50,488 bases of DNA from Verrucomicrobiota bacterium (GTDB lineage: Bacteria > Verrucomicrobiota > Verrucomicrobiia > Limisphaerales > UBA9464). The translations under genes and the position numbers were made by a program. Positions 32,970 to 36,176 of this stretch are shown piece by piece. Numbering within the stretch: position 1 is the stretch's first letter; each line of letters begins with the position of its first letter. The notes under the pieces are model-generated. The model saw nothing but the letters and a program-made list of their open reading frames with translations. It was not told the DNA's origin and made no database searches. The stretch covers positions 1-50,488 of the forward strand of contig JAFLEF010000053.1 in assembly GCA_017309115.1 (NCBI GenBank), in the 5' to 3' direction.

Positions 32970-32996
32970 TGTCCTTTTCAAACGTCTCGGCTCGTC
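32970..32996 (+). promoter_or_regulatory. Predicted ECF-sigma promoter P1 (TGTCCT-17-CGTC) before the DoxX-like gene
   Basis: TGTCCT at 32970-32975 and CGTC at 32993-32996 are separated by exactly 17 bases and lie 17 bases upstream of the ATG at 33014, giving a very short leader. The same two words and spacing occur before the VOC and YciI genes. Matches in form the -35/-10 boxes reported for the ECF42 sigma group (TGTCGA type), which is encoded at the end of this cluster. Start site is not known. Confidence 0.6.
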
Positions 32997-33013
32997 ATCT
33001 CTGTCAGTCCGTC

Positions 33014-33430
33014 ATGAAATACCTACCAGCACTCGCAGGCGCCCTCCTGGGCCTCGTCTTCATCGCTTCCGGCGTTGTGGTCTTGTTTAATGTCGTGACC
33101 ATGCCGGCGCCACCCGCGGGAACACCTCTGGCCTCGTTCATGGACGCTTTTGGCCCCACCGGGTACATGAAATTCGTGAAAGTCTGCGAAATCCTCGGCG
33201 GGCTCCTGGTCGCCATTCCCCGCACCCGCAACTGGGGATTACTGATTCTCGGGCCGATTTTGGTGAACATTCTGGCGTTTCACGTCTTTGTGGGCGGTGG
33301 GGAGGGCTTGAAGGATCCGGTCTTGATCGTCCTCTGCCTGTTGGCGGCCTACTTGCTCTGGGTGGGTCGGGCCGGATTTCTCGGTCTGTTGGGCCAACCT
33401 CGATCCCCATCCGCCACTCCGGCATCTTGA
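33014..33430 (+). CDS. DoxX-like small membrane protein
   Basis: 138 residues from ATG 33014; the frame extends to 32891 but promoter P1 and the signal-like start argue for the ATG. Four hydrophobic helices (about 4-28, 50-70, 75-95, 100-125) and a G-x-x-x-x-x-x-E-I-L-G-G-L-L-V pattern fit the DoxX/DUF4267-type family. Family members are poorly understood and are often linked to oxidative stress. First gene of the ECF42-like cluster. 87 bases separate it from the next gene, which contain promoter P2. Confidence 0.75.
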   Translation: MKYLPALAGALLGLVFIASGVVVLFNVVTMPAPPAGTPLASFMDAFGPTGYMKFVKVCEILGGLLVAIPRTRNWGLLILGPILVNILAFHVFVGGGEGLKDPVLIVLCLLAAYLLWVGRAGFLGLLGQPRSPSATPAS

Positions 33431-33441
33431 ACAGGTTTCTT

Positions 33442-33468
33442 TGTCCTGATCGCTTCGGGTCATTCGTC
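33442..33468 (+). promoter_or_regulatory. Predicted ECF-sigma promoter P2 (TGTCCT-17-CGTC) before the VOC gene
   Basis: TGTCCT at 33442-33447, a spacer of 17 bases and CGTC at 33465-33468, ending 49 bases before the ATG at 33518. The spacer sequence differs from P1 and P3, so the shared words are not simply a recent duplication. Confidence 0.6.
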
Positions 33469-33517
33469 TCAGATTCGAATACTGGATCAACCTCCAGACC
33501 TGCACTGAATCACTCTC

Positions 33518-33943
33518 ATGAACATTCCCGCCTCTTCCGTCGTTTCCCCGTACCTGTTTTTCGAAGGCCACTGTGACGAAGCCTTGGCCTTCTATCAGAA
33601 GGCCCTGGGCGTCCAGGTCCAGTTTCTCATGCGCTACCAGGAGGGGCCTGAACCCGCCTGTAGAGAGGCGATGGGGGACAAGGTCATGCACGCCTCGTTT
33701 CTGATCGGCTCGACGCTGGTCATGGTGTCCGATGGGCGGTGCTCGGGGCAGACCAAGTTCGATGGGGTTTCCCTTTCCCTGACGGTTCCGACACCGGCTG
33801 ATGCTGAGCAGGCCTTTGCCGCGCTGTCCGACGGGGGCACCGTGCAAATGCCGATGTCGGAGACATTCTTTTCCCCGCGTTTTGGGATGGTGGCGGATCG
33901 CTTCGGTGTCTCTTGGATGGTTTATGTGAAGCCGGAAAACTGA
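33518..33943 (+). CDS. VOC-family (PhnB/glyoxalase-like) protein
   Basis: 141 residues, one vicinal-oxygen-chelate fold made of two beta-alpha-beta-beta-beta units. The opening S-P-Y-L-F-F-E-G-H-C-D-E-A-L-A-F-Y and the later M-H-A-S-F and F-G-M-V-A-D-R-F-G-V-S-W are typical of PhnB-like proteins, often annotated as 3-demethylubiquinone-like methyltransferase relatives. Catalytic function is not established for this group. It belongs to the plus-strand cluster led by P2 and followed by P3 nine bases after its stop. Confidence 0.88.
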   Translation: MNIPASSVVSPYLFFEGHCDEALAFYQKALGVQVQFLMRYQEGPEPACREAMGDKVMHASFLIGSTLVMVSDGRCSGQTKFDGVSLSLTVPTPADAEQAFAALSDGGTVQMPMSETFFSPRFGMVADRFGVSWMVYVKPEN

Positions 33944-33951
33944 ACCGGCTT

Positions 33952-33978
33952 TGTCCTCAACCCAGGATTCACTTCGTC
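33952..33978 (+). promoter_or_regulatory. Predicted ECF-sigma promoter P3 (TGTCCT-17-CGTC) before the YciI gene
   Basis: TGTCCT at 33952-33957, a 17-base spacer and CGTC at 33975-33978, 25 bases before ATG 34004. A degenerate, shorter-spaced relative (CTTCCT then TTCACTT) lies before the sigma gene at about 34820-34842. Confidence 0.6.
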
Positions 33979-34003
33979 AAGATTTTGGAACGAACATCTC
34001 AAC

Positions 34004-34420
34004 ATGAACACCAACAAAACTGATTCTGATAACGGATACCTCCTCATCTTTCGCGGGACCGACTGGCACAAGGGACTGTCAGCGGAGGAAATGCAGCACG
34101 TGGTTAGCCGTTGGCGCGAGTGGTTTGACCGCTTGACCGAACAAGGCCAGGTGGCGGGCGGGAATCCGCTGGAGAACACCGGCAAAGTCATCTCCGGTCC
34201 ACAGGGCCGGGTCGTGGCGGATGGTCCGTTCGCCGAAGCCAAGGAAGCGATCGGAGGCTACTTCCTGCTCACGGTGGCCACGGAAGACGAAGCTCTGTCC
34301 ATCGCCCGACAATGTCCGGGACTGCCCTACGGGGCGATTGTCGAAGTGCGACCGATCGCCGAGCGCTGTCCGATGGCAGTGGAGGCTTATGCCGCCGCGG
34401 AATCGTTCGCCGTCGCTTAA
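34004..34420 (+). CDS. YciI/DGPF-domain protein
   Basis: 138 residues with the DGPF signature at Asp73-Phe76 (V-A-D-G-P-F-A-E-A-K-E), which names the YCII-related DGPF family. The ferredoxin-like fold is expected, with a conserved central His/Asp region. DGPF genes are the characteristic neighbours of ECF42 sigma factors, where they are direct targets; their biochemical role is unknown. The gene follows promoter P3 and is separated by 16 bases from the DUF1428 gene, so those two may be co-transcribed. Confidence 0.88.
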   Translation: MNTNKTDSDNGYLLIFRGTDWHKGLSAEEMQHVVSRWREWFDRLTEQGQVAGGNPLENTGKVISGPQGRVVADGPFAEAKEAIGGYFLLTVATEDEALSIARQCPGLPYGAIVEVRPIAERCPMAVEAYAAAESFAVA

Positions 34421-34436
34421 CCTCAAGTCGCTCATC

Positions 34437-34805
34437 ATGGCTCAGTACGTGGATGGTTACTTGCTGCCAATTCCGAAGAAGAATCTGGCGGCCTACCGAA
34501 CTTTGGCCCGCCGCGTGGCGAGAATCTTTCTCGACCATGGAGCGCTCGAGGTTCGGGAATGCGCCGGGGAGGACTTGGAGTCGCGGTGGGGTAAGACCTT
34601 TGGGCAAAATCTGAAACTCAAGTCCGACGAGGTCGCGATCTATTCCTGGATCGTCTTCAGGTCGCGGGCGCAGCGGGATCGAACCAATGAGTTGGTTCAG
34701 GAGGACGCCCGGATGAAAAAGTTGGCCTCCGGAACCATGCTCTTTGACTGCAAACGGATGGTTTACGGTGGATTCACCACCCTGGTTCTGGCCCGCAGGT
34801 CGTGA
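34437..34805 (+). CDS. DUF1428-family protein
   Basis: 122 residues from ATG 34437. It opens Y-V-D-G-Y-L-L-P-I-P-K-K-N-L and has S-W-I-V-F-R-S and K-R-M-V-Y-G-G-F-T, all standard for DUF1428 (YbaA-like, ferredoxin-like dimers). A longer frame from 34221 overlaps the YciI gene and is not used. Function unknown; relatives are commonly placed beside DGPF genes. The gap to the sigma gene is 42 bases. Confidence 0.85.
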   Translation: MAQYVDGYLLPIPKKNLAAYRTLARRVARIFLDHGALEVRECAGEDLESRWGKTFGQNLKLKSDEVAIYSWIVFRSRAQRDRTNELVQEDARMKKLASGTMLFDCKRMVYGGFTTLVLARRS

Positions 34806-34847
34806 CCAATTGGGTGAACTCCTTCCTGAACTGGATTCACTTGGGCT

Positions 34848-36176
34848 GTGACTCCTGTCTCTGATCCCTCTGCGTCCGCCGATGACGTGCCGGGCGTGGT
34901 GGAACATCTCTTCCGCCACGAATCCGGCCGAATGGTGGCCATTCTGACCCGCATCTTTGGCAGCGAACACCTCGGTCTCGCCGAGGACGTGGTTCAGGAC
35001 ACCCTGGGTCGGGCGTTGCAGACCTGGCCGTACCACGGCATTCCAGAGAATCCCGCGGCGTGGATCATGCGCGCTGCGCGGAATCGGGCCCTCGACGTGA
35101 TCCGCCGCGACCGGGTGTTTCAGGACAAGGAGGCCGAAGTCATCCGGCGGATGGAGGATTCCCAGTCCGCCGCAACACGGCCAGACACCGAACCGACCGC
35201 CGTCGCCGATGACCGCTTGAGGCTGATGTTGGTTTGCTGTCATCCGCAGATTCCTGAGGACGCCCAGGCGGCTTTGGCGCTGAGAACCTTGTGCGGCTTC
35301 AGTGTCACCGAAATCAGTCGGGCGTTCCTAACCTCGGAAGCGGCGGTGGCCAAACGCCTCACGCGGGCGCGTCAGAAGATTCGGGAGGCCAGAATTCCGT
35401 TCGAGATTCCCGAAGGAGAGAATCTGCAGGATCGAGTGGAAGGCGTTCGCCGCACCCTCTATCTGTTGTTCAACGAAGGCTACAAAGCTTCCCAAGGAGA
35501 GCGCCTTGTCCGGGAAGAGATCTGTCATGAAGCCATTCGTCTGACCACGTTGTTGGCGGAGCATCCGGTGGGGCGTCAACCGGCGACGGAAGCCTTGCTC
35601 GCGCTAATGCTGCTGAGTGCGGCTCGCTTTCCGGCGCGGTTGGATGCGTCGGGCCGACTGCTGCGTCTGAACGAACAGGACCGGTCGCGCTGGGAGGCAG
35701 CGAAAATTTCCCAGGGCTTGTTCCATTTGATGCGCTCGGCCTCCGGCAACGTGATCTCCGAGTACCATCTACAAGCGGGCATTGCTGCCTGCCACACGGC
35801 AGCTCCGAACTACGACTCCACCGACTGGCGGCAGATTCTATCGTTGTACGATCAGTTGGTGCGGTTGGATCCGTCGCCGGTAGTGGCCCTGAATCGAGCG
35901 GTGGTCGTCGGCAACGTCCACGGCGCGGCGGCGGGTCTGGCGGCGGTTGAGGCGATCCCCCAACGTCGGAAGTTGGACGACTACTACCTTCTGTATGCGG
36001 TGCTGGGCGAGCTCGAGTCCCAGTTGGGGAGGCACGAAGTCGCGGTGCGTCACTTTCGCCGATCCCTCCAATTGGCCGAGCTTCGGTCGGAGCAGACGTT
36101 TCTTCAGCGCCGTCTGGACGATTCCGAGAGTTACCTGGAATCGGCCGACCTCATGGTGCCGCGTCGGACGTCGTAA
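34848..36176 (+). CDS. ECF42-like RNA polymerase sigma factor with TPR C-terminal extension
   Basis: 442 residues from a GTG at 34848. Sigma-2 domain about 18-90 (V-V-Q-D-T-L-G-R-A-L-Q-T-W, A-W-I-M-R-A-A-R-N-R-A-L-D) and sigma-4 about 120-185 (helix-turn-helix F-S-V-T-E-I-S-R-A-F-L). The conserved L-Y-L-L-F-N-E-G-Y and a long helical TPR region (about 190-430) are diagnostic for the ECF42 type, which lacks an anti-sigma factor and is controlled through its TPR tail. No anti-sigma gene is visible. Last in the plus-strand group; convergent with the next gene, 9 bases away. Predicted to drive P1-P3. Confidence 0.9.
   Translation: MTPVSDPSASADDVPGVVEHLFRHESGRMVAILTRIFGSEHLGLAEDVVQDTLGRALQTWPYHGIPENPAAWIMRAARNRALDVIRRDRVFQDKEAEVIRRMEDSQSAATRPDTEPTAVADDRLRLMLVCCHPQIPEDAQAALALRTLCGFSVTEISRAFLTSEAAVAKRLTRARQKIREARIPFEIPEGENLQDRVEGVRRTLYLLFNEGYKASQGERLVREEICHEAIRLTTLLAEHPVGRQPATEALLALMLLSAARFPARLDASGRLLRLNEQDRSRWEAAKISQGLFHLMRSASGNVISEYHLQAGIAACHTAAPNYDSTDWRQILSLYDQLVRLDPSPVVALNRAVVVGNVHGAAAGLAAVEAIPQRRKLDDYYLLYAVLGELESQLGRHEVAVRHFRRSLQLAELRSEQTFLQRRLDDSESYLESADLMVPRRTS

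Follow-up and report, generated by a model that had tools for sequence, protein, structure and literature searches.

A variant ECF42 sigma factor module in a Verrucomicrobiota bacterium and a recognition-helix residue associated with the fifth base of its −35 element

We analysed a 50,488-nucleotide stretch of DNA (the window) from a Verrucomicrobiota bacterium (assembly GCA_017309115.1, contig JAFLEF010000053.1), in which three identical promoter-like sites precede genes of a cluster that ends with a sigma factor gene of the extracytoplasmic function (ECF) type. Judged by motif, spacing, gene context, the association of one residue with one promoter base and the recurrence of that association in three lineages, this sigma factor probably belongs to a Lys-type, specificity-switched subgroup of ECF42 that runs a parallel regulon. 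That the cluster is a variant ECF42 module, ordinary in its parts, is well supported; the part worth following is the recurring link of one helix residue with one promoter base. In the proposed mechanism, the sigma factor together with RNA polymerase would read TGTCC(T)-N17-CGTC (N17, a 17-base spacer) in front of a DoxX-like gene, a VOC gene, a YCII-DUF1428-sigma unit and a distant AHSA1-family gene, and promoter 3, reading into the sigma factor's own unit, would provide autoregulation. Lys169 would replace the more usual Gln in the sigma-4 recognition helix, alongside a G-to-C change at base five of the −35 element, and the window promoters would thereby be kept apart from the TGTCGA promoter of a Gln-type paralog. 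Direct recognition, autoregulation and insulation are what we infer here, as are the signal and the role of the YCII protein.

Three promoter copies and an ECF42-like sigma factor

Exact matching located TGTCCT-N17-CGTC three times in the window, always on the + strand, against 0.15 copies expected (standard deviation 0.41), and none of 100 dinucleotide shuffles contained three or more. This confirms a preliminary description of the DNA, which had reported three identical ECF-type promoters upstream of the DoxX-like, VOC and YciI genes with an equal spacing of 17 bases; as also stated there, the three spacers are dissimilar in sequence. The promoters, the genes and the relevant parts of the sigma factor are the following, with ranks referring to the 100 listed genome sites scored with a refined motif trained on relatives.

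32970..32996, + strand: promoter 1, TGTCCT-N17-CGTC, exact motif, rank 6
33014..33430, + strand: small DoxX-like membrane protein, 138 amino acids (weak label)
33442..33468, + strand: promoter 2, TGTCCT-N17-CGTC, exact motif, rank 1
33518..33943, + strand: VOC/YjdN-like protein, 141 amino acids (PF06983 at 2.9e-11, PF00903 at 4.4e-10)
33952..33978, + strand: promoter 3, TGTCCT-N17-CGTC, exact motif, rank 7
34004..34420, + strand: YCII-domain protein with a DGPFAEAKE motif, 138 amino acids (PF03795 at 9e-11)
34437..34805, + strand: DUF1428 protein (PF07237 at 1.9e-30)
34848..36176, + strand: ECF42-like sigma factor, 442 amino acids, GTG start (PF04542, PF08281, PF20239; structure model)
35337..35390, + strand: sigma-4 recognition helix, residues 164-181 (model helix; aligned with 2h27)
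35352..35354, + strand: Lys169 codon, proposed −35 specificity residue (residue-base association)
35433..36173, + strand: C-terminal extension, DUF6596 and helices like those of tetratricopeptide repeats (TPR) (Pfam; structural matches)

Promoter 1 stops 17 bases short of the DoxX-like start codon (ATG), promoter 2 lies in the gap between the DoxX-like stop and the VOC start, and promoter 3 in the gap between the VOC stop and the YCII start. As no further TGTC-N17-CGTC site precedes the DUF1428 and sigma genes downstream of YCII, promoter 3 probably drives YCII-DUF1428-sigma. The DoxX-like protein has no Pfam match at 0.001 (MauE alone appears, at E=2.2), and Pfam recognized no anti-sigma gene among the four cluster genes, one of them encoding a small membrane protein without Pfam assignment. 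The 'stress' role ascribed to the cluster is putative, being suggested by its gene families.

The sigma factor matches sigma regions 2 (PF04542) and 4 (PF08281) above cut-off, as in the ECF type, and its tail matches DUF6596 at 2.9e-33, with no TPR match in Pfam at 0.001. In a structure model from seven sequences (mean predicted local distance difference test score 82.1, predicted TM-score 0.68), the tail is helical, and the best PDB matches of the model found by Foldseek are designed TPR superhelices (best E 4.5e-4, at a low TM-score of 0.30 by query). The preliminary description was right to see an ECF42-like protein at the cluster's end and to give its tail a TPR-like character. As described in excerpts of PMC8999054 and PMC6180224, ECF42 proteins combine sigma-2 and sigma-4 with a TPR-type tail of ~200 residues and have a YCII neighbour. 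Present here are the ~200-residue TPR-type extension, the YCII (DGPF) neighbour gene, the N17 spacing and the CGTC −10; absent is the TGTCG-type −35, replaced by TGTCCT at all three sites, and we therefore file the sigma factor as a variant subgroup rather than as canonical ECF42.

Residue 169 and the fifth base of the −35 element

Among 387 sampled genomes of the phylum, 36 contained a sigma match at 1e-30 (57 matches in total); the flanks of these 57 matches and six further loci gave a Verrucomicrobiota set of 63 sigma genes in 62 loci, window included. Pairs of TGTC and CGTC in the 62 loci peaked solely at N17, with 43 in sense and 7 in antisense orientation, against 2-17 in sense at other spacings. 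The relatives' sites usually carry TT ahead of a CGT(C/T) −10, and their last −35 base is variable. The fifth −35 base followed the relatedness of the sigma factors: beside the 36 that are more than 50% identical to that of the window, it was C for 30 (tie 3, none 2, T 1), and beside the remaining 27 it was G for 17 (C 3, tie 3, none 3, T 1). In the helix alignment, residue 169 is Lys in 36/36 of the close relatives and Gln in 25/27 of the others. Some loci showed further arrangements. L064 carries tandem TGTCC-type sites 63 bases apart, at −1238 and −1175 from the sigma start, and L063 (64% identical sigma factor) has no TGTC-N16-18-CGTC in the range scanned, its nearest relatives having two or three. 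At about −400 (L176), −510 (L102) and −480 (L152) from the sigma start, sites with a CGAC −10 can match as promoters on both strands, because TGTCG and CGACA are reverse complements.

Addition of loci from a plasmid collection and from Hydrogenedentota brought the set to 96 sigma factors with a readable helix (L146, whose helix was not recovered, was excluded); the plasmid loci were hand-picked, 26 of ~250 records, some for their resemblance to the Lys type. For labelling, TGTC was fixed beforehand, and an open frame downstream and N17 were required. Beside the 49 Lys sigma factors, the fifth base of N17 sites was C in 67, G in 3, A in 3 and T in 4, and beside the 44 Gln sigma factors it was G in 43, C in 6, T in 3 and A in 3. 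Called per sigma factor, Lys went with C in 41/49 (tie 4, none 3, T 1) and Gln with G in 29/44 (tie 7, none 5, C 2, T 1); L068, L077 and L093, all of Lys type, had no site under the labelling rule, and some of the C sites beside Gln sigma factors may belong to a Lys sigma factor encoded in the same genome. Residue 169 gave the correct C or G for 70 of 73 labelled sigma factors, and the next columns for 64, 62, 62 and 61. The spacings N13 and N20 also split the groups (N13, Lys C 42, G 11; N20, Lys C 15, G 2 and Gln G 10, C 2), mostly because of overlap with TGTC words that have an N17 partner: when these words were removed, N13 showed no split (Lys C 12, G 11; Gln C 8, G 8) and N20 a small one (Lys C 6, G 2; Gln G 8, C 2). 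The variant −35 TGTCCT noted in the preliminary description is real, but was framed too narrowly, being the rule for a sigma subgroup with Lys169 instead of Gln.

A fourth group has a common helix background. Within it, Ala or Val at this position went with TGTCAA in 3/3 sigma factors (L156, L193, L204), and same-background Gln sigma factors had upstream TGTCGA in 5/7 (L194, L199, L200, L205, L206), the exceptions being L191, with TGTCGA downstream only, and L203, with none in the scanned range. TGTCAA stands on both strands upstream of the sigma gene in L156 and L193, as if one sigma factor served a divergent pair of genes. The R-type sigma factors L147, L195, L197 and L198 have no TGTC-N17 site, and show other words or TGTC at spacing 18 only.

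On a tree from which the helix columns had been left out, Lys and Gln required three changes, forced by its starred branches. The three lineages are the Verrucomicrobiota/Hydrogenedentota clade, Paraburkholderia/Caballeronia and Nonomuraea. Across three independent Lys/Gln pairs the base shifted concordantly in 2.9/3 on average, and among the first 230 columns residue 169 alone swapped identically in three chosen contrasts. The sharpest of these sets a Nonomuraea Lys sigma factor with TGTCCT-N17-CGTG against an 84%-identical Embleya Gln sigma factor with TGTCGA-N17-CGTC. On balance we lean towards a one-residue switch, in which Gln would read G, Lys C and, in one background, Ala or Val A, with at least three Gln/Lys switches, and which bacteria would use to keep ECF42 regulons for the same gene families running side by side and insulated within a single cell.

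The position of the residue was examined by alignment and modelling. With phmmer, the sigma region aligned ungapped to region 4 of Escherichia coli sigma-E (2h27), placing residue 169 at Ser172 of sigma-E (native numbering, counted along this alignment), and the structure model has residue 169 inside helix 164-181. Lys169 could contact the guanine opposite the new C. In Corynebacterium glutamicum, the corresponding segment of the helix was mutated to shift the choice of −35 element (excerpt of PMC11588781).

It is unlikely, in our estimate, that the ECF42 promoters are real and residue 169 is a mere lineage marker, other sigma-4 residues setting the TGTCC preference. The next-best columns also split the groups (64, 62, 62 and 61 of 73), T172 and E164 differ as well, and Ala at position 169 does not always come with a changed base; yet residue 169 lies within the recognition helix and is alone in swapping identically in three lineages, including the 84%-identical pair.

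Start sites, genomic targets and a second sigma factor

In the 49 TTCGTY sites of the Lys clade (Y, C or T), T stands eight bases after CGTY in 38/49 and a purine nine bases after it in 43/49 (G in 36/49). TGAA is common at bases 8-11 after CGTY, around the inferred start, beyond the plain need for an initiator purine. In Sinorhizobium meliloti, two mapping methods place an ECF42 start on the ninth base downstream of CGTC (Table 1 of PMC6180224). This ninth-base rule predicts starts at 33477 for promoter 2 and 33987 for promoter 3; that of promoter 1 is ambiguous because the ninth base is C, and may be 33005 or 33006. We consider it very unlikely that a different regulator controls the cluster by binding the repeated words, and that these are not −35 and −10 elements. 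The three sites are near-identical, and some relatives' sites show GTTC...GAAC symmetry, but the fixed N17 and the CGTC match the mapped S. meliloti ECF42 promoters, a purine stands at the mapped start distance and the sites are tied to a residue of the sigma factor's own helix.

A whole-genome scan for TGTCCT-N16-18-CGTC, proposed in the preliminary description as a way to define the regulon, returned mostly background (54 matches versus 43 for the reversed control) and defined none, so that the bare motif was dropped as a regulon finder; spacing 17 occurs in 9/54 matches, 3 of these 9 lying within 1 kb in the window cluster. A loose TGTCC-N18-CGTY scan was too weak (107 versus 81). TGTCC-N16-TTCGTY gave 13 matches versus 1, and each of the 11 that lie elsewhere than in the window overlaps an open frame of at least 60 codons. 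Among these 11, from its sequence context, we take the site at C58:8859 alone as a promoter: it is followed by an in-frame ATG, and the AHSA1 domain begins only after that codon; the site ends 33 bases before this ATG of the AHSA1-family gene. At another match, C44:66905, a 152-codon frame begins 187 bases downstream. The refined motif, trained on relatives only and scored on 100 listed of the 107 TGTCC-N18-CGTY genome sites, gave the VOC promoter the highest score and C58:8859 the next highest. Given this strong site before a distal AHSA1-family gene, the cluster is probably not the self-contained module it had been taken for. Among the proteins behind Lys-type sites, of which 48 of 49 distinct ones were scanned (one long frame excluded; categories overlap), YCII was found in 17, glyoxalase in 7, DUF899 in 5, AHSA1 and DUF1428 in 4 each, DUF1579 in 3 and DoxX in 2. 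We discount almost entirely that the three sites arose by chance in a GC-rich sequence: the genome as a whole shows no clear enrichment of the bare motif, and some in-frame sites score at least as well as promoters 1 and 3, but 0/100 shuffles reach three and the same motif stands near like kinds of genes in relatives.

A family search found two DUF6596 genes in the genome, the window sigma factor and a paralog on contig 22.

C22:17343-18560: Gln-type paralog (L101), 32% identical to the window sigma factor, with a YCII-like gene directly upstream

The putative promoter of this YCII-like gene is TGTCGA-N17-CGTC, so that two related sigma factors with unlike −35 words seem to coexist in the genome. 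A TGTC-N19-CGTC match at the locus arose in 27/200 shuffles and is not rare, yet it has the canonical word in the usual place. A scan for the Gln-type TGTCGRAA-N15-CGTC gave 5 genome matches versus 1 in the control, the YCII-gene match among them. Of the 36 genomes with a match, 16 have more than one such sigma factor, and in 15 of these 16 the Lys and Gln types occur together; Lys types alone are found in 16 of the 36 and Gln types alone in 5. The genomes with both types fit a duplication followed by promoter divergence, as far as their sequences tell, and the window sigma factor may be insulated from its Gln-type sister.

Several results weigh against a regulon specified through Lys169. TGTC was preset in the labelling, and 8/49 Lys and 15/44 Gln sigma factors gave a tie, no site or another base; some concordant labels are poor, such as that of L063, which comes from a single site 2.5 kb downstream. 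Ala occurs with TGTCGA in other backgrounds (L196, and L152 at spacing 18), so context matters and there is no simple code. The tree is quick and has long branches, the base label requires five changes on it, and with three contrasts the sign test has a floor of p=0.25, which puts significance out of reach. Simulations for C. glutamicum assigned the fifth −35 base to the neighbouring residue (excerpt of PMC11588781; alignment ours). The VOC gene of the window contains a TGTCGG-N17-CGTT match, and promoters 1 and 3 were outranked by three sites that lie within other frames or at their beginning, so that sequence alone does not distinguish them. Autoregulation is opposed by the S. meliloti YCII-sigma operon, which was unresponsive to its ECF42 (excerpt of PMC6180224).

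Comparison with known sigma factors

Todor et al. reportedly published a general ECF recognition code in PNAS in 2020, and the residue-base link is a case of such a general code, not a new principle. A search of titles and abstract openings, which did not take in the main ECF42 and classification papers, found no paper on a TGTCC −35 variant of ECF42. The link amounts to a rule of promoter choice, open to testing, that pairs one residue with one base in a widespread sigma family; it also suggests a way for paralogous sigma copies to escape cross-talk and would allow targets of uncharacterised ECF42 copies to be predicted from sequence.

Region 4 of E. coli sigma-E, solved with its −35 element (2h27), has a recognition helix that aligns ungapped with that of the window sigma factor; unlike the latter, sigma-E reads a GGAAC-type element. 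ECF41, represented by S. meliloti RpoE9, likewise carries an extension fused at its C-terminus and has a TGTC-type −35 with a CGTC −10 (excerpt of PMC6180224), but differs in its TGTCACA −35 and SnoaL_2 tail (excerpt of PMC8103513). The Gln-type paralog is of the same family and likewise has YCII directly upstream, and is set apart by its low identity and its TGTCGA-N17-CGTC promoter. The −35 of Streptomyces venezuelae ECF42 is TGTCGA as well. S. meliloti ECF42 promoters read TGTCGG-N17-CGTC (Table 1 of PMC6180224; spacing counted here). With S. meliloti RpoE10, S. venezuelae Sven_0747 and others, and Pseudomonas putida ECF-10, as excerpts of PMC6180224 and PMC8999054 describe them, the window sigma factor has in common sigma-2 and sigma-4, the ~200-residue TPR-type tail, the YCII neighbour, glyoxalase-like and hydrophobic-ligand-binding targets, N17 (by our own count) and the CGTC −10; it differs from these ECF42 proteins in the fifth −35 base, which is C and not G, in Lys instead of Gln, and in the DUF1428 gene between YCII and sigma.

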